The notes under the pieces are model-generated. The model made no database searches. It was not told the DNA's origin and saw only the letters and a list, made by a program, of their open reading frames with translations. From the NCBI GenBank assembly GCA_025054775.1, contig JANWZA010000059.1, positions 1-64,000 of the forward strand: DNA of 64,000 nucleotides. Reading direction: 5' to 3'. The DNA is from Microscillaceae bacterium. Lineage in GTDB: Bacteria > Bacteroidota > Bacteroidia > Cytophagales > Microscillaceae. A program made the position numbers and the translations under genes. Shown here piece by piece: positions 19,641-27,663 of the stretch. Numbering within the stretch: the stretch's first letter is position 1; each line of letters opens with the position of its first letter.

Positions 19641-19864
19641 TAGAAGTTGTTAAGGATTTATTTTTTTTCCATTCTACATATAGAAACGAAAATGAATTAT
19701 AGTATTATCTTTGCTAAAGATTTCCATAAAAGGGCTATTTTAGGCTAGATACCTAAAAATAAACCTTTGAGCGGAAGTATTTTATAATCCTAAACAACTT
19801 TCAGGCTAATTCTATAGTCTAAATACTCTTGATACAAAAACATTTTTCCATTTTTTCATTCTCT

Positions 19865-21751
19865 ATGTGTGGAATTTCCTTCATTCGCTTACGCAAACCT
19901 TATACTTACTATATAGAGAAATACAAAACACCTATGTATGGTTTGCAAAAATTGTATATCCTAATGCAAAAACAAAACAATCGTGGGCAAGATGGTGCGG
20001 GAGTGGCTACACTCAAATTGAACGTCCCTCCTGGGCAAAGATATATCAGCCGATACAGGTCAATGGATGAGAACCCTATTGAGGACATTTTCAAGAAAAT
20101 TACCCAAAGAATAGAACATGCACTTAAAGCTCACAAAAAAGAAGCCCAAGACCAAAAGTGGGTGTATGAAAATGTTGCTTTTATGGGAGAAGTCTTGTTA
20201 GGGCATTTGCGATATGGTACACACGGGATTAACAGTTTGGAAAATTGCCACCCCTTCTTACGGCAAAGCAACTGGCGAGGACGTAATCTGATCTTAGCAG
20301 GAAATTTCAACCTAACTAATGTGGATGAATTGTTTGATACATTAGTAAAACTTGGGCAACACCCCAAAGATAAAATTGATACCGTACTAGTATTAGAAAA
20401 AATTGGACATTTCCTTGATGAAGAAAACCAACGCTTATTCAGAGAGTTCAGAGAGCAAGGGCTAAAAGGTGAAGAATTAGCACGAGCTATTGAGCAACAA
20501 ATTGACTTAAAGAAAATCTTGAGCCGCGCTACGCGCGATTTTGACGGAGGATATGCCATGATAGGGATTACAGGCTATGGAGACGCCTTTGTGGCTCGGG
20601 ATGCTCATGGAATAAGACCAGCTTTTTATTACGCTAATGATGAGGTAGTGGTTGTCGCTTCTGAACGCCCTGCTATTAGAACAGCCTTCGGTATTGAATA
20701 TGACCAAATTCAGGAAATTAAACCTGCCCATGCTCTTTTAATTGATAGACAAGGTAATTTCAAACAAGAACTTTTTACAGAACCGCAACCCGTAAAAGCA
20801 TGTAGTTTTGAGAGAATTTATTTTTCACGAGGTACAGACCCTGCTATCTATGCAGAAAGAAAAAATTTAGGCAGGTTAATTGCTCCTAAAATTTTGGAAG
20901 CTATTAACTATGATTTAGAAAATACCGTTTTCTCTTACATTCCTAATACTGCCGAAACAGCCTTTTTAGGCATGATAAAAGGTATTGAAGAATATATTGC
21001 CCAGCAAGCCCTTGAAAAATTACGAATATTCAAAGAAACCAACGACCCTGCCATAGAGGCTGATCTAATTAAGCTCCTCTCCACTAAGCCACGCATAGAA
21101 AAGTTAGCTATCAAAGAAGTAAAACTTCGTACTTTTATTACTGAAGATGAGCAACGCGAAGACGTGGTTTCTAGTGTGTATGATACCACTTTCGGTGTTA
21201 TCCGTAAGCAACAAGACACGTTAGTACTAATTGATGACTCTATTGTAAGAGGCACTACGCTAGAAAAAAGTATTTTGAAAATGTTAGATAGGTTAGAGCC
21301 GAAAAAAATCATTATTGTCTCCTCAGCTCCGCAAATTCGCTTTCCTGACTGCTACGGAATTGATATGTCTAAAATCCGTGAATTTGTTGCATTTAGAGCC
21401 GTGCTAGAACTTTTAGAGGAAACCCAACAAGAGCATCTTTTAGATGAGGTATACGCTCAATGTTTGGAAGCAGAAGAAAATAACCTAGCTGAAACGAAAA
21501 ACTATGTTAAACGCCTCTACGATCTTTTTTCTGACGAACAGATTTCGGCTAAAATTTCGCAAATGGTAGGGCAAGAAATCCATGCCGAAATTCAAATCAT
21601 TTACCAAAGTGTAGAAAACTTACATTTGGCTTGCCCACAACACACTGGCGATTGGTATTTTACAGGTGATTATCCTACCCGAGGAGGCAACCGCGTGGTT
21701 AATCAAGCATTTATCAATTTTATGCAAGGTAGTTTTGAGCGTGCTTACTAG
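19865..21751 (+). CDS. Long PurF-like amidophosphoribosyltransferase
   Basis: A 628-residue class II glutamine amidotransferase. The N-terminal nucleophile Cys2 follows the initiator Met (MCGISFIR), and NRGQDGAG, GHLRYGTHG and NFNLTN mark the glutaminase site. The phosphoribosyltransferase PRPP loop is VLIDDSIVRGTT (about 453-464). Ordinary PurF is ~460-510 residues; the extra length sits mainly between the glutaminase and PRPP loop and in an additional C-terminal ~90 residues. The ATG at 19865 is certain because Cys must be residue 2; the longer frame starts at a TTG. A TATCTTTG -7 box at 19706-19713 would give a leader of ~145 bases in which I see no known riboswitch. Confidence 0.82.
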   Translation: MCGISFIRLRKPYTYYIEKYKTPMYGLQKLYILMQKQNNRGQDGAGVATLKLNVPPGQRYISRYRSMDENPIEDIFKKITQRIEHALKAHKKEAQDQKWVYENVAFMGEVLLGHLRYGTHGINSLENCHPFLRQSNWRGRNLILAGNFNLTNVDELFDTLVKLGQHPKDKIDTVLVLEKIGHFLDEENQRLFREFREQGLKGEELARAIEQQIDLKKILSRATRDFDGGYAMIGITGYGDAFVARDAHGIRPAFYYANDEVVVVASERPAIRTAFGIEYDQIQEIKPAHALLIDRQGNFKQELFTEPQPVKACSFERIYFSRGTDPAIYAERKNLGRLIAPKILEAINYDLENTVFSYIPNTAETAFLGMIKGIEEYIAQQALEKLRIFKETNDPAIEADLIKLLSTKPRIEKLAIKEVKLRTFITEDEQREDVVSSVYDTTFGVIRKQQDTLVLIDDSIVRGTTLEKSILKMLDRLEPKKIIIVSSAPQIRFPDCYGIDMSKIREFVAFRAVLELLEETQQEHLLDEVYAQCLEAEENNLAETKNYVKRLYDLFSDEQISAKISQMVGQEIHAEIQIIYQSVENLHLACPQHTGDWYFTGDYPTRGGNRVVNQAFINFMQGSFERAY

Positions 21752-21832: not shown

Positions 21833-22984
21833 CTATTTGTCAATTACATCCAAAATTTTTTGAATACGTGCAGCCTCTTCTTTACGTTTAAGTGAATTGT
21901 AAATATTGTAGAGTGGTCTGAGAACTTCTACCTCGTTCTTTTTTACATTGTTTGCTTTTTCAAAGTAAGGGAGTGCTTTTTCTAATTCTGCTTTCGCTTT
22001 GTCTTCTAAGGGTTTGCCTTTTTTATTGTAAGTTACCATATCCATGTTGTTTACCTCTTTGAGTAATTCACTGGCTCTGTTGTAAAAGATAGCTCCTGCG
22101 TTGAAGAGTGCCTCGTAGTTGTAAGCATCAAGTTCTAGGCACTTGTTGTAAGCTTCAAGGGCTTTGTCAAGCAAATTAGCGTTATTGTATAAAATACCTA
22201 ACTTCAAGTAATTGATAGCATCATTTGGATTGCTCGCAATTACCTTCTGTAACTTTTCAATAGCAAGATCAACTTTATTAGCTTTGAGTAAAAGTTCTAC
22301 GTGCAAATCATTCAATTCTTTGTCATTAGGGTACTTTTTTAGCCCCTCATCAGCCCAGTAGAGAGCTTTTTCATAATCCTTATCCTGATCGCGAATAAAA
22401 ATCGCCAAGTCGCGATAGGCTTGTAACTTGTTTTTCACTTCTGGACTTTTGATAAGTTGCTCGGTGAGGTCTTTATACTTTTTAAAGTCTTGGGTAAAAT
22501 AGGCTGATATTGAGCCAATTAGAAAACCGAGTGTATCTTTGGGGTTAAGCTCGCGTCCAAGTTCGGCTGCACGTAAGGCATTAGCATATTTTTTGGCATT
22601 GTAGTTATCTACGGCATAGTTAAGCATAGGGTAATACAACGTATCTAGGTAAGCTTTGGCATCCTTATAACTTCTACCTTTGGCAGGATCAAGTTCCATG
22701 GCTTTTTTGTATGATTCATAAGCCGTAAACACGGCATTAGTATCCAAATTCTTAAATAACTTGGTAGGATCGGTAGCAATTCTGAAGTAGATGCGTCCAC
22801 GCAAAATCCAAGTACGAGGTTTTACTTTCTCTTTTTCGTCTTGAATAGCTATCTCAATTGCATCGCGTGCGTCTTTGAGTTTGCCATTAGATAAGTGGTT
22901 AGCGGCTTTGTTATATTGTGCTAACAATATTTGAGAACAGCCTACTAATCCTGCAAGTGTAATCAATAAACGAATGTTTTTCAT
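21833..22984 (-). CDS. TPR-repeat exported protein
   Basis: A 383-residue protein made almost entirely of tetratricopeptide repeats (for example ALEAYNKCLELDAYNYEALF). The N-terminus is an export signal; LVGC could be a lipobox, but cleavage at LLAQ by signal peptidase I is also possible, so lipoprotein status is open. The ATG at 22984 replaces an upstream TTG. It is the last of five minus-strand genes with Ser/Thr kinase, FHA and VWA-FHA proteins, 73 bases after the VWA-FHA gene, and may scaffold that set in the periplasm. A TATCTTTG -7-like box lies at 23027-23034. Confidence 0.82.
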   Translation of the reverse strand: MKNIRLLITLAGLVGCSQILLAQYNKAANHLSNGKLKDARDAIEIAIQDEKEKVKPRTWILRGRIYFRIATDPTKLFKNLDTNAVFTAYESYKKAMELDPAKGRSYKDAKAYLDTLYYPMLNYAVDNYNAKKYANALRAAELGRELNPKDTLGFLIGSISAYFTQDFKKYKDLTEQLIKSPEVKNKLQAYRDLAIFIRDQDKDYEKALYWADEGLKKYPNDKELNDLHVELLLKANKVDLAIEKLQKVIASNPNDAINYLKLGILYNNANLLDKALEAYNKCLELDAYNYEALFNAGAIFYNRASELLKEVNNMDMVTYNKKGKPLEDKAKAELEKALPYFEKANNVKKNEVEVLRPLYNIYNSLKRKEEAARIQKILDVIDK

Positions 22985-23057
22985 AAAAATAGGATAAAAT
23001 AAAAGGCTCAACTAATAACATTTCTGCAAAGATATTGAAAACTTGTAAAAATTTGCC

Positions 23058-24680
23058 CTAAATTTCAAATTTTGCACTTGCTGAACCTAATTTTATTATA
23101 TCTCCTGCTTTGAGCAAGTGGCGTACAATTCGCGAACCGTTGACAAATGTGCCATTTGTACTATTACGGTCTGTAAGTATAAAACTCCCATTTTCAATTG
23201 TAATAGTAGCATGAAAGCCTGACACTGTTTGCTCAGGTATCATAATATCGTTATTTGGATTTCTACCTATGGTAATAGTGGGTTTGTTTAGTGGAAATTG
23301 CTTATTCAAAGCTCCTGCTACCACGTGAAGTGTAGGAGTAGATGCGCCACTTGCTATCATGGTTTGTCGTAGTTTTTTCTTTGCTTCTTCTTCTTCTTCT
23401 CTTTGTTTAATCTCTTTTTGGAAATATTGTGAAACCTCTATGGCTCGCTGGATTTCTGCTTCTTTGGCACGTAACTGCTCTTGTAAGCGAATATTCTGCT
23501 CCTCTAATGCTTTGATACGCGCTTGCTCTTCCACTTCTTTGCGTAAGCGTTCTTGTTCGGCTTGTGCTGCAGCTTCGGCTGCTGCTTCTTCCTCTTCGCG
23601 TTTTCTGATGCGGTATTCGTTATATCGCCAAAGAGCAAAACCCACCAAAATGCCTACTCCAAGCAAAATAAAAATACCGTAACTGCTCAAAAAAGAATTG
23701 GCTGCACCGCTGTTCTTTCTATCAGGTGAAACATAGGTAATTACCTGCTTTTCACCTGCATATTGTATCTCAAATTGATGACTTTTGCCATCTGCAGGTT
23801 GGTTTGTATTGAATGAGAGTACATATTTATCTTTGTCTGCCTCGCTGTCGTTTTTAGCTGTGGATTTAATAAAATCGTTTAGAGCATTTTTTATCTCTGA
23901 GCTATTTTTAGCTATGGCAAACAAGCCATTCGTTTTATCTGACATAAGCATAAAATTTTCACGTTCTGAGGCAAACTTTCCTCCCTCAATTCTATGCCCG
24001 ATAATATTAAGAGCTAATCCTGCGCGGTTAGCTTTATCAATACAATTACCTGCTCCAATTGGCGAGTTAGTTTTATTTACAGTGGAGCAAAGGATGATAA
24101 GCAATTTAGCAACATCTTCCTTGTATTCATCCATGTATTTTATGGCTTCGTAAATACCTTTGTAGAGGTCATTATTCGTTAGGTTCGTATCTGTCTCGGC
24201 ACGTAGTTTGCTACGAATAGCCTCACGCAAGCGGTTTTTATTATTCGTAAATTCAGCACTTACCACATTCAAAACTTTTTCCTCTTCTTCTTGGGGTTTG
24301 CCAAAGTAGCCGATATTTACCTTATCTCCCTCTTCTAAAAAATCTAAACTTGCCGTCAAGGATTTCTTAATATTATCTAACGGTAGTCCTGCTGTAAAAG
24401 CTGATGTTTCTACCACAAAAAAGACAAGCCGATTTCTAGGTGTACCTTTGCTGAGAGGAGACTCGTACCTATTCAAGGCAAATGGCACTTCTTTTTTGTC
24501 CTCGTCTAGTATCTTAAAGTCTGCTTCGGCAGGTATTTTTTTGTTTAGGATTTGTATTGTTACCTTCAATGAAGGGAAGCCCATCGTATCAATTGGCTCA
24601 AAAACTTTGAACATATTATTTTGAGCCATCACTTGCCAAGCAAGCAAGCATAAAAAGTAAAAGGTATAAACAACTTTCAT
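23058..24680 (-). CDS. VWA-FHA membrane protein
   Basis: A 540-residue protein with a signal peptide (1-20, ending VMAQ), a periplasmic von Willebrand factor A-like domain (about 65-270; VFFVVETSAF in place of a canonical DxSxS metal site), a membrane helix (about 330-352), a Glu/Arg-rich coiled coil (about 355-440) and a cytoplasmic FHA domain (about 450-540, ITIGRNPNNDI and STNGTFVNG). FHA domains bind phosphothreonine, so it could relay the state of the nearby Ser/Thr kinase across the membrane. The ATG at 24680 is chosen for its signal peptide; the longer frame begins with TTG. Confidence 0.82.
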   Translation of the reverse strand: MKVVYTFYFLCLLAWQVMAQNNMFKVFEPIDTMGFPSLKVTIQILNKKIPAEADFKILDEDKKEVPFALNRYESPLSKGTPRNRLVFFVVETSAFTAGLPLDNIKKSLTASLDFLEEGDKVNIGYFGKPQEEEEKVLNVVSAEFTNNKNRLREAIRSKLRAETDTNLTNNDLYKGIYEAIKYMDEYKEDVAKLLIILCSTVNKTNSPIGAGNCIDKANRAGLALNIIGHRIEGGKFASERENFMLMSDKTNGLFAIAKNSSEIKNALNDFIKSTAKNDSEADKDKYVLSFNTNQPADGKSHQFEIQYAGEKQVITYVSPDRKNSGAANSFLSSYGIFILLGVGILVGFALWRYNEYRIRKREEEEAAAEAAAQAEQERLRKEVEEQARIKALEEQNIRLQEQLRAKEAEIQRAIEVSQYFQKEIKQREEEEEAKKKLRQTMIASGASTPTLHVVAGALNKQFPLNKPTITIGRNPNNDIMIPEQTVSGFHATITIENGSFILTDRNSTNGTFVNGSRIVRHLLKAGDIIKLGSASAKFEI

Positions 24681-24912
24681 TTCATTGAAGAATATGTTTT
24701 TTAGTGTACAATTTGCGTTTTTTAGTATAAGTTTTTTTGCTCCCACTTCGGTATGTTGCACCAAGCTCAGCGGATTTGCTCTTTTAATCTCTAATACAAA
24801 ATAATATTCGGTTGGTGTAAAATTTTATTTTTTTGCCTTACTTGTTAGTTCAAAATTTAGCAAACTTGATAAATAAAAAACATATTTTTATTTTTTTCTC
24901 AAATCAATTAGG

Positions 24913-25491
24913 TTAGGCAATACTCCTAAACTTAAAAACCGTATCTCCGATTCTTATCATATCTCCATCTTTGAGCGTGCCTTCCTCTTCAAAAATATCG
25001 TTGATAAAAGTGCCATTAGTAGAAAGTTCATCTTTGAACTTAAAATGCCCCATGCGATACAAAATAGTAAGATGTTTAGCTGAAACAGCGGGGTCATCTA
25101 TTTGAATATCACATTCATAACTTGAACCAATGGTATTTCTACCTTCGTAGAGGCGAAAATCTTTGCCGTATTCATCAAGGGTAAAAGACACCAACCAACC
25201 TACTAATTTTCGCTCTTTACGTACCTGTTTAGGTTGTGAACCAAAATCCCCACTTCCAAAAGACACTCCGCCGCCCTCGTCAGTAAAAATTTGAGTACGT
25301 GAAAGGTTACCACGTCCTATACTCCCTATGCTTCCGCCAAATATATCAGGTTGTCCCTCAAAGTTATCTTCCTTACCTTGCATCGTAGCCCGTAAATTGT
25401 CCTCACTCCCCCCTATTTTAGGGCAATAAGGGCAAAAAGCTTGACTTTTAGGGTAGTAATGCCCATTTTCGCATAGTTTGAAATCGCTCAT
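24913..25491 (-). CDS. Zinc-ribbon FHA-domain protein
   Basis: A 192-residue cytoplasmic protein. The N-terminus has a zinc-ribbon-like motif (C7, H11, C20, C23 in CENGHYY and FCPYCP), followed by a Gly/Ser-rich linker and a C-terminal FHA domain (about 105-190; RNTIGSSYECDI, VSAKH, STNGTFIND). It should bind phosphothreonine peptides. It lies between the Ser/Thr kinase and the VWA-FHA gene on the same strand. The ATG at 25491 is chosen over a TTG two codons upstream. Confidence 0.82.
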   Translation of the reverse strand: MSDFKLCENGHYYPKSQAFCPYCPKIGGSEDNLRATMQGKEDNFEGQPDIFGGSIGSIGRGNLSRTQIFTDEGGGVSFGSGDFGSQPKQVRKERKLVGWLVSFTLDEYGKDFRLYEGRNTIGSSYECDIQIDDPAVSAKHLTILYRMGHFKFKDELSTNGTFINDIFEEEGTLKDGDMIRIGDTVFKFRSIA

Positions 25492-25685
25492 GTTCAAAAA
25501 TAATTAAAATGCTTTGTGTATATTTACTCTAAACTAAAAGTAGCTCAAAATTAGTAAAAAATTATGATTGGTTACACTCAGCTTATGAAATTAGATTTTT
25601 AATTTGCAAAAATGATTTTGAAAATCAATTGTTTACAATAGTACTATTTTAATAGTGGCAAAGCATTTTTCTTTGAGGAGGTTTT

Positions 25686-26087
25686 TTATATTTTGTTAAA
25701 GGTATTATTACGTCTATTTTGGGGCTGAGCTATCCAATAAATTTTGACAAAAGTTATTCGTTTTGCGGTATGCCTAAAAAGTTTGAGATATTGCTTTTTA
25801 AGTTCCTTCTTACAACAGATAGCTATGCGTTGAAAGTCTTTGAGTTTAACACGCCAATATACTCCATCTTTATCTAAACGAGGTACAACAGGCACGTGTA
25901 ACTGATACATACAAGTCCGAATCTTATCTAACCTACAAGTAGCTTTGAAAAAACAAAGTGTGGGAAAGGCTACTACTTGCAAGCTAGCAAAGGTATTTTC
26001 TGACAGCCACTTTTGTAGGTGTTGGTGTAGTTTATCTTTGGCAAATACATAGTTTACAAGCCTTTGTATTTCAGAAGATTGCCTCAT
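25686..26087 (-). CDS. Hypothetical basic protein, 133 residues
   Basis: I do not recognise this protein. It is strongly basic, has seven Cys residues but no paired zinc motif, and no signal peptide or membrane helix from the ATG at 26087. A longer frame from a TTG at 26120 adds a hydrophobic run (LLFYFSVLILM) that looks accidental. It lies within the minus-strand FHA/kinase block, so it may share that role, but nothing in its sequence shows it. Confidence 0.5.
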   Translation of the reverse strand: MRQSSEIQRLVNYVFAKDKLHQHLQKWLSENTFASLQVVAFPTLCFFKATCRLDKIRTCMYQLHVPVVPRLDKDGVYWRVKLKDFQRIAICCKKELKKQYLKLFRHTAKRITFVKIYWIAQPQNRRNNTFNKI

Positions 26088-26235
26088 GAGAATTAGAACA
26101 GAAAAGTAGAAAAGAAGCAAAAGAAAGGTTCACATTTGTGGTGGCTTCGCGTCTAGGTAACTCAAAAAATCTCTTACTGTAAAAGTATACCTAAAGGTAG
26201 GAAAAAAAAACGAAATATACAAGTTTTAAGCGGTT

Positions 26236-27663
26236 TTATTTTTCAAATTCTTTTACTTGTTGCCATTCATTTAGTACAAGTACGTATTCAGAGGCTTTTC
26301 TATTGTGCCAAGGCCAAGAACGCATTACATTTCTTTTTCCATCAATCTGTTGAATTATTACCGTTGGAAACGGCAAGAAACATAATAAAGCCAAAAGGAC
26401 TACTAACAAGGAAAGAAAAAAAATGCTCCAATGGAAAGCAATCAGCCATAAATAAACTGCCATTCCCAACAAAAAGAGTCCCGTAGCATATTCGCGATGT
26501 ACTTTGAAAGAGGCTTTTTCTACCTTAGCAATATCTATACTTTCTAATTTCCCTTTCTCAAAGAGATCTAAGCCTTTGTAAAAAATAAGCTTTTGCGTAG
26601 TAATTTTTCCGAATTTATTTTCAAGTAAAATCTTCTCTTCGCTCATAGCGTTTTTATGAGGTATAGGTTGAGCGTTAGTTTCAGTGGCTTTTGGGCTAAT
26701 TGCCTTATCGGTTTCTGCTTGAGATGAGGGCTTTTCTATCTTTGAAATCGTTTCTAACACTATTTCGTGTTGGGTGTTAGTTTTAGGTTCAAAAATCCAT
26801 TCTTTGGTTGAGGTGTTAGCAGGTAATATAGCTTCTTTTTTGAGCAGAGCATTTCGCATGGCTTCTACTGTGGGAAACCGCTCTTGTGGATTTTTAGCGG
26901 TGGCTCGGTCTATGATGTCTTGCATAAAATCTGAAACACGGGGATAAAAGTATTTAGCTTTCGGAAGTGCTTGGTTGATAATAAGTTGGCTAATTTCAAA
27001 TTCAGAGTCGTAGTGCTGGTAAGGGTTTCTCCCTGTAAGCATCTCAAATAGTGTAATGCCCAAACTGTAAATATCAGAACGCTGGTCTAGTTCTTCACCT
27101 CGTACCTGCTCGGGGCTCATGTAGAAAATTGTCCCCATTTTTACACCTGCTTTAGTCAAGTTTTCTACATCTTCTTTTAAGTTTTTTGCAATGCCAAAAT
27201 CTAAAACTTTTACTTTTTCCTTAGGCAAGAGCATAATATTAGCAGGCTTAATATCACGGTGAATAATCCCTTTTTTGTGGGCATATACGAAAGCATCAAG
27301 TACTTGCTTAAAAATTTGAATTGCTTTTGCTTCAGGGATAGGTCCTTGAATCTCTTGTATATATTTCTCCAGCGTAATTCCCTGTACATATTCCATAATG
27401 ATATAAATACTTCCCGAGACTTCCAAATAATCATACAGAGCTACGATATTAGGGTGGAAAAGTGTTGCCATAAGACGTGCCTCATTCTCAAATCTTTTGC
27501 GGATCTCTGGATTGACAGAGAATTGTGGCTTTAAGGCTTTAATAGCTACTTTTCTTTGCCGCTTGAGATCTTGGGCTAAGTACACCGTCCCCATCCCCCC
27601 CTCGCCTAATGTTTTTTCTATGTGATAATGAAATGAATGAGTGATGGTAGAATTAGTAGGCAT
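26236..27663 (-). CDS. Ser/Thr protein kinase with C-terminal membrane segment
   Basis: A Hanks-type kinase of 475 residues. The kinase domain (about 10-275) is complete: glycine loop LGEGGMGTVYLA, K42, E61, catalytic HRDIKPAN (D137), DFG (D155) and the SPEQ segment. After a Thr/Ser-rich linker come two close hydrophobic segments (about 393-435) and a ~40-residue tail. The kinase probably phosphorylates threonines read by the two FHA proteins just downstream. It starts the five-gene minus-strand block and has a consensus promoter at 27690-27721. Confidence 0.93.
   Translation of the reverse strand: MPTNSTITHSFHYHIEKTLGEGGMGTVYLAQDLKRQRKVAIKALKPQFSVNPEIRKRFENEARLMATLFHPNIVALYDYLEVSGSIYIIMEYVQGITLEKYIQEIQGPIPEAKAIQIFKQVLDAFVYAHKKGIIHRDIKPANIMLLPKEKVKVLDFGIAKNLKEDVENLTKAGVKMGTIFYMSPEQVRGEELDQRSDIYSLGITLFEMLTGRNPYQHYDSEFEISQLIINQALPKAKYFYPRVSDFMQDIIDRATAKNPQERFPTVEAMRNALLKKEAILPANTSTKEWIFEPKTNTQHEIVLETISKIEKPSSQAETDKAISPKATETNAQPIPHKNAMSEEKILLENKFGKITTQKLIFYKGLDLFEKGKLESIDIAKVEKASFKVHREYATGLFLLGMAVYLWLIAFHWSIFFLSLLVVLLALLCFLPFPTVIIQQIDGKRNVMRSWPWHNRKASEYVLVLNEWQQVKEFEK

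Follow-up and report, generated by a model that had tools for sequence, protein, structure and literature searches.

Five genes at the locus and a conserved pair among them

The window analysed here is a stretch of 64,000 nucleotides from the genome of a Microscillaceae bacterium (Bacteroidota; Cytophagales; assembly GCA_025054775.1, contig JANWZA010000059.1, positions 1 to 64,000), and our subject is a group of five open reading frames (ORFs) on its minus strand at 21833-27663. From upstream to downstream these encode: a Ser/Thr kinase; a basic protein; a zinc-ribbon FHA protein, termed ZFHA below; a membrane protein with a VWA-like and an FHA domain, termed VWA-FHA; and an exported TPR protein. 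An earlier interpretation made from the letters of the DNA (the sequence-only reading) had united all five in one circuit. Each of the five ORFs it named is present at these coordinates, and Pfam recovers their domains, with nothing above cut-off for the basic ORF: the kinase matches PF00069 at 209 bits, the FHA domains of ZFHA and VWA-FHA score 53.8 and 77.4 bits, respectively, and the last protein contains TPR repeats. As judged by comparison with relatives, the five ORFs are real yet not one unit, the conserved partners being only ZFHA and VWA-FHA. These two belong to a conserved and apparently undescribed bacterial phosphothreonine signalling module; in keeping with the earlier suggestion of an undescribed circuit, we found no paper describing the gene set in the open-licence literature.

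The sequence favors ATG 25491 and ATG 24680 as the starts of ZFHA and VWA-FHA. The gap between the kinase and the basic ORF is 115 bases, and those that follow are 188-194, 148-232 and 46-73 bases depending on the start chosen. A scan with a Bacteroidota -33/-7 promoter consensus gave matches 5' of four of the five genes (none for VWA-FHA), and is uninformative in that 42% of shuffled sequences also match. Six kinases of the window genome score above the cut-off, and just two FHA domains are detected in it at E 0.001, both of them in the five-gene region.

ZFHA: a zinc ribbon and an FHA domain joined by a disordered linker with Thr motifs

ZFHA (24913..25491, minus strand) is resolved by its Pfam match, an alignment of 41 sequences and an AlphaFold model into three parts: an N-terminal zinc ribbon (residues ~1-25) with the motif CxNGHYY...CPYC, for which zinc binding is putative; a disordered linker (28-90) modeled at low pLDDT, the predicted local distance difference score; and a C-terminal FHA domain (95-190). 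Within the linker, Thr66 (codon 25294..25296, minus strand) of an RTQIF motif is a proposed phosphoacceptor on grounds of both conservation and motif excess. It is Thr in 41 of 41 rows of our alignment A4 and in 48 of 49 rows of a second alignment. The more general motif [KR]T.[ILVF] occurs 74 times in the linkers of 32 representatives, with at least one copy in 31 of the 32 and up to five in one protein; shuffled sequences average 3.94, and none of 1000 shuffles reaches the observed count. With Ser in place of Thr the motif is absent (3.23 expected), and control motifs of other kinds display no excess in these linkers. FHA recognition is selective for Thr over Ser; hence, the use of Thr without Ser is what recognition by an FHA domain would select.

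The residues of FHA domains that bind phosphothreonine lie in the GR, SxxH and NG motifs (PMC1262709). In the FHA domain of the window ZFHA, whose closest structural match is FhaA (3poa: Z 18.5, root-mean-square deviation (rmsd) 1.5, 95 aligned), SxxH and NG are retained and GR is replaced by GS. Across a set of 49 ZFHA proteins, which includes that of the window and leaves out 10 of the 58 loci described below that have no recognizable ribbon ORF, the arginine position is R in 23, S in 18, A in 7 and K in 1.

VWA-FHA: a predicted transmembrane protein and proposed reader

For VWA-FHA (23058..24680, minus strand) the combined evidence of Pfam, PDB profiles, a structure model, fold comparison and hydropathy predicts the following topology: a signal peptide, seen by inspection from ATG 24680; a periplasmic β-sandwich/VWA region; a single transmembrane helix; a coiled coil; and a cytoplasmic FHA domain. 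The helix (23637..23693, minus strand), located between the VWA domain and the coiled coil/FHA region, corresponds to a hydropathy peak at residues 358-376 with a basic flank after it. The periplasmic VWA domain of the sequence-only reading is in keeping with this predicted topology.

The VWA-like domain (23838..24446, minus strand) falls below the Pfam cut-off (19.9 against 23.8 bits) and is well supported by two other comparisons: a profile of 13 relatives matches the calcium-channel alpha-2/delta and integrin chains over this region at 9.2e-10 and 1.7e-7, and residues 108-306 of the model superpose on the VWA fold of 6fpy_A with a VIA-align Z of 22.4 (rmsd 2.0, 176 aligned). Its MIDAS motif is degenerate, with the form E/D-x-S: the first position is Glu in 32 of 40 sequences and Asp in 6 of 40, and the window protein has ETSAF. 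This degeneracy makes metal-dependent ligand binding doubtful.

The FHA domain of VWA-FHA, in turn, keeps GR in 39 and S..H in 40 of 40 sequences, and the window protein has all three motifs. Of the two phosphothreonine readers that had been proposed, therefore, VWA-FHA retains the canonical arginine and the window ZFHA does not. With the arginine lost in one and kept in the other, one canonical reader and one multi-site substrate would be expected in this genome; we infer from these residues that ZFHA is mainly a phosphorylated hub and VWA-FHA its membrane reader. A second candidate phosphosite, Thr468 (codon 23361..23363, minus strand), was located with alignments and the model in a disordered segment before the FHA domain of VWA-FHA (low pLDDT over 453-473). 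Not all of the family conserves it: alignment A1 has Thr here in 12 of its 13 rows, a wider set in 13 of 40 sequences, and comparable sites are seen outside Cytophagales too (e.g. locus L166). The Thr motif as such shows a weak excess in VWA-FHA (7 against 2.84; 22 of 1000 shuffles). Thr468 could compete in cis for the FHA domain of its own protein.

This last arrangement brings to mind the self-binding switches GarA and OdhI. GarA carries ETTS phosphosites in an unstructured N-terminal extension that is bound by its own FHA domain (PMC5448819). By analogy, each FHA protein of the pair might fold onto its own phosphorylated linker Thr and thereby switch its other interactions, making binding between ZFHA and VWA-FHA unnecessary. 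Both the presence of a conserved Thr in the disordered segment before the FHA domain, in ZFHA and in part of the VWA-FHA family, and the placement of GarA/OdhI among the closest FHA matches by sequence and fold are compatible with such a switch. We nevertheless regard it as a rather doubtful possibility: self-binding would be weak in the window ZFHA, where Ser replaces the FHA arginine (26 of 49 ZFHA proteins are without it); Thr468 is Thr in only a minority of VWA-FHA proteins; and as many as five motifs in one ZFHA is more than a self-switch requires. GarA and OdhI are also unlike the pair in being metabolic regulators. With the OdhI model the scores are 52.4 and 33 bits, far from its cut-off of 200. 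GarA and OdhI are not known to have a zinc ribbon, transmembrane helix or VWA domain.

Gene neighborhoods define a module with a phosphatase and kinases

We searched 14 other genomes of the same family (Microscillaceae), together with further genomes of the order. Of the 14, 12 contain a VWA-FHA of nearly full length, two having an in-frame stop and one being split across contigs. It also occurs in two genomes of genus g97 in family f38, one of them that of the cultivable Rhodocytophaga aerolata, whose cluster genes are grouped at locus L119, and in three genomes of the Raineya group, with a copy cut by the contig end in a fourth. An ORF survey of the 12 family genomes with VWA-FHA placed ZFHA directly before it in 6, a PP2C phosphatase after it in 5 and two kinases next in 4; the whole set lies together in 4 of the 12. 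Among relatives, the loci L085, L086, L087 and L088 have ZFHA, VWA-FHA, PP2C, Ser/Thr kinase and Ser/Thr kinase in this order.

A scan of genomes with the ZFHA alignment recovered 58 loci. For their annotation we constructed our own models, to which 7 of these loci had themselves contributed sequences. They are mostly labelled Bacteroidota, namely Cytophagales, rumen and other Bacteroidales, one Saprospirales and one Flavobacteriaceae, with further instances in metagenome-assembled genomes labelled Ignavibacteriales, Opitutia and Chloroflexi. Downstream of ZFHA on the same strand, VWA-FHA is present in 40 of the 58 loci, starting within ~900 bases of the ZFHA start in 38 of these 40, PP2C in 35, a Ser/Thr kinase in 28 and all three in 25. 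When only the 48 loci that extend 5 kb or more beyond ZFHA are counted, the corresponding numbers are 34, 33, 27 and 25. A random 10 kb would contain ~0.01 PP2C and ~0.02 kinases (arithmetic from the three PP2C and six kinases above cut-off in the 3.0 Mb window genome). The module is patchy: among 395 sampled Bacteroidota genomes 57 have some ZFHA match, which is strong (best E no higher than 1.4e-40) in 11, the window genome included, and weaker in the remaining 46, where for the most part it covers the FHA part alone.

Beyond this core, the commonest ORF families of the 58 loci are an alpha/beta hydrolase (7 loci), PurE (5) and then families in 4 (among the first 25 of 61 families). A Pfam scan of 43 of the 47 non-core ORFs collected from 38 loci yielded no dominant family. 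In several Cytophagales clusters (L085 5660-6142, L111, L119, L127, L145) purE, encoding AIR carboxylase, is located just upstream of ZFHA; in the window, an amidophosphoribosyltransferase-like gene (19829-21751, plus strand) is found at the opposite side of the region. Two clusters (L073 14900-17257, L134 7029-9941) include FHA-ABC transporters that bear two or three FHA domains, a layout reminiscent of Rv1747. One cluster kinase bears 19 WG repeats behind its kinase domain (L136 4043-7156), and a small STAS-like gene, recognized by its sequence, precedes ZFHA in three related genomes (L112 9531-9986, L114 9568-9990, L118 9552-9932).

Likely partners elsewhere in the window genome

In the window genome the phosphatase and kinase components have likely counterparts on other contigs. 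Contig C43 encodes a PP2C with one transmembrane helix and a LysM tail; its match to the cluster PP2C model has an E-value of 2.2e-115, and it passes the NCBI Stp1/IreP cut-off. On contig C55, the first of two kinase-like genes groups with the first kinase of the clusters (support 100/98). Its product has a transmembrane helix and two LysM stretches and is classed as a pseudokinase, since all 4 of 4 members of its clade have Ala in place of both the HRD Asp and the DFG Gly. This LysM pseudokinase stands beside the second kinase-like gene, and a little way upstream of it is a gene for an 834-aa TPR-GAF-adenylate/guanylate cyclase (L075 3292-9798). A kinase on contig C7 looks active and lies near the second cluster kinase in the tree without strong support; it scores 331.1 bits against the PASTA/PknB model NF033483, below the curated cut-off of 450. 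Two long branches of this tree, OWN_C8 and L111_5883, meet at its root and were not used. The module in the window genome hence looks complete but dispersed, with the orthology of the C7 kinase a candidate one. As the phosphatase and the pseudokinase lie outside the window, they were not visible to the sequence-only reading.

LysM domains were found in 3 of 3 pseudokinases scanned. From the known role of LysM, these tails suggest a link to peptidoglycan; their presence on the likely partners fits the link to the cell envelope that had been proposed for the locus.

The neighboring kinase, basic ORF and TPR protein

The kinase upstream of the pair (26236..27663, minus strand) has, by Pfam, hydropathy and a check of residues, an intact catalytic apparatus and two C-terminal hydrophobic helices, in line with its description as a membrane kinase. 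It scores 334.8 bits against NF033483, again below 450, and belongs to no well-supported group in the kinase tree. Recognized by its C-terminal tail, it is matched once in each of 13 of the 14 family genomes, and none of these 13 matches falls on a known ZFHA/VWA-FHA contig, a count that is weaker for the several fragmented assemblies and to which genome G258 contributes no known VWA-FHA contig. Six fetched kinase neighborhoods have no neighbor in common among themselves.

The TPR protein (21833-23011, minus strand; Pfam TPR repeats) has homologs in 22 of 23 genomes searched, its own included. The best homolog is on the contig of the pair in 0 of 14 family genomes, several of which are fragmented assemblies, and in 4 of 7 fetched loci (L209, L210, L213 and L214) the TPR gene lies directly 3' of a gyrA-like gene (recognized from sequence). 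The TPR family is common in Cytophagales, and the window gene has a neighbor other than the gyrA-like one. The basic ORF (25686-26120, minus strand), with nothing above the Pfam cut-off, has no credible homolog in 22 other genomes, two weak matches containing stops; it could be an orphan gene or no gene at all. Its codon-position composition resembles that of the neighboring genes, with the TPR values, computed out of frame, set aside. A homolog of either the TPR protein or the basic ORF was found in 0 of 58 ZFHA loci at 1e-3.

These counts bear on the five-gene circuit, in which the products of all five neighboring genes would act together. The five genes are adjacent on one strand, the kinase is catalytically intact and the only two FHA domains detected in the genome sit beside it; yet the kinase tail and the best TPR homologs do not accompany the pair in the family genomes, with the limits just given, the latter being found instead after a gyrA-like gene in four fetched loci, and the basic ORF has no credible counterpart. 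We accordingly consider the circuit in this form very improbable. The sequence-only reading had named lack of gene-order conservation in relatives as its refuting condition; gene order holds for the ZFHA/VWA-FHA pair in many relatives and fails for the adjacency of the other three. The neighboring kinase might or might not act in a circuit of the pair.

Relationship to known systems

In actinobacteria the cell-wall locus has the order fhaA-fhaB-pstP-rodA-pbpA-pknA-pknB, and its succession FHA, FHA, PP2C, kinase, kinase is repeated in L085-L088. The FhaAB-PstP-PknAB set is not known to include a zinc ribbon or a VWA domain. Its joint encoding of a pair of FHA proteins with a transmembrane PP2C and two kinases is described in PMC6554272. 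The gene types are thus the same as in our module, the ZFHA FHA domain best matches FhaA, the best NCBIfam match of VWA-FHA is FhaB (64.3 bits, below the cut-off of 125) and LysM domains occur on PP2C and pseudokinase, all of which could suggest an equivalent cell-wall control system acting on peptidoglycan synthesis. Several features make this equivalence unlikely. No relative of rodA or pbpA was found in the module loci (tblastn at 1e-4 with the window genome's two RodA/FtsW proteins and its PASTA-bearing C4 protein against the 58 loci). PASTA domains of the window genome are on C4 and C32 only and none is at its kinases; likewise, the Pfam-scanned kinases have none, and LysM is present in some. 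The module is therefore unlike the actinobacterial locus in having, where scanned, LysM instead of PASTA, plus a zinc ribbon and a periplasmic VWA domain as predicted; its first 'kinase' is a pseudokinase in Microscillaceae; and the window genome has its PP2C and its cluster-type kinases on contigs other than that of the pair.

A second parallel is the ArnA-ArnB pair of Sulfolobus, in which ArnB is cytoplasmic. A zinc-finger FHA protein is here paired with a VWA protein, along with kinases and a phosphatase (PMC6509490, PMC12852372); ArnB has an intact MIDAS and carries phosphosites (PMC6509490); and bacterial VWA proteins with an ArnB-like layout include C. acidiphila vWA and E. coli YfbK (PMC12852372). 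Our module similarly places a zinc-ribbon (zinc binding putative) and FHA protein beside a VWA protein. Among the 50 structure matches listed for VWA-FHA, only 4fx5 and ArnB (8s05_A) align over both the β-sandwich and the VWA domain (residues 50-354); the high rmsd values, 12.0 for 4fx5 and 11.0 over 238 residues for 8s05_A (residues 50-352, Z 20.5), suggest that the domain orientation differs. VWA-FHA departs from ArnB in being membrane-bound, with a predicted periplasmic VWA domain, a degenerate MIDAS instead of DxSxS and an FHA domain of its own, and the Thr motifs of the module are on the zinc-ribbon protein, whereas in the Arn pair the phosphosites are on ArnB.

Two further systems share elements with the module. 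The threonine phosphorylation pathway of type VI secretion, PpkA-PppA-Fha1, has the same kinase, PP2C and FHA logic (PMC5995506, PMC6213207). With the TagH model the scores are 42.8 and 41.6 bits, both below its cut-off of 120.25, and the sheath gene VipB, the sole type VI secretion gene searched for, was not found in the window genome, in line with the sequence-only reading. Actinobacterial neighborhoods with GAP1-N2 GTPases have a kinase (often with a zinc ribbon), a PP2C and a vWA gene side by side (PMC7159879); as described there, these are GTPase systems with a standalone vWA and no FHA pair. Against models of anti-phage systems, the kinases match generic PD-T4-6 kinase models and the PP2C and TPR proteins weakly match candidate PDC models; ZFHA and VWA-FHA have no match in that scan, from which the basic ORF was left out. 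In sum, the module parallels the actinobacterial locus and ArnA-ArnB, yet lacks in each case a defining feature that we tested, and is a member of none of the known families compared.

A proposed phosphothreonine relay

The gene association in relatives, the domain layouts, the Thr motifs and the scattered partner homologs of the window genome are observations; on them we build the following proposal, to which we give about an even chance (roughly 0.5). ZFHA and VWA-FHA would be the adaptor pair of a module with a PP2C phosphatase and one or more Hanks-type kinases, joined in Microscillaceae by a LysM pseudokinase, and VWA-FHA would read the ZFHA linker once marked by a kinase. The state of the envelope or of peptidoglycan, sensed via the periplasmic LysM and VWA domains, would set the balance between kinase and phosphatase; the kinase would phosphorylate the Thr motifs of the ZFHA linker; the intact FHA domain of VWA-FHA would then bind the phosphothreonine, holding the zinc-ribbon protein at the membrane; and the PP2C would reverse both phosphorylation and membrane holding.

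Several observations weigh against this proposal. VWA-FHA occurs without ZFHA, PP2C or kinases in the fetched stretch in 6 of 12 family genomes (ZFHA is on another contig in 4 of these 6, and the two are apart in the Raineya group too), 14 of the 48 loci with room have no detected VWA-FHA, and in the window genome the parts of the module are spread over four contigs. The N-G of the VWA-FHA FHA domain is kept in just 30 of 40 sequences, and the Thr motif is not enriched in PP2C, the Ser/Thr kinases or other FHA proteins. LysM is present in just 2 of 5 PP2C scanned, and the second cluster kinase of L111 is degenerate as well, a label that for some kinases reflects gaps or the VAIK column alone. 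Finally, with the FHA arginine present in 23 of 49 ZFHA proteins, a role as substrate only cannot, from the residues, hold across the family.

A fuller version of the adaptor-pair proposal, which we offer tentatively as a possibility well short of even odds, is that of a Bacteroidota envelope relay: the LysM pseudokinase and LysM phosphatase would read peptidoglycan, a kinase would mark Thr residues on the zinc-ribbon hub, and a membrane protein with a periplasmic ArnB-/Sec23/24-like VWA core would read these marks. Such a relay would be a Gram-negative counterpart of both the actinobacterial PASTA kinase/FhaA/pseudokinase axis and ArnA-ArnB.

Implications

Ser/Thr kinase signaling at the cell wall has been worked out mainly in Gram-positive bacteria and actinobacteria with PASTA kinases. 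The module described here may watch the cell envelope. If so, its LysM tails, pseudokinase, phosphatase and predicted periplasmic VWA domain would give Bacteroidota a comparable system with testable phosphosites, and would link the zinc-finger FHA/VWA logic of the archaeal ArnA-ArnB pair to a bacterial envelope system.

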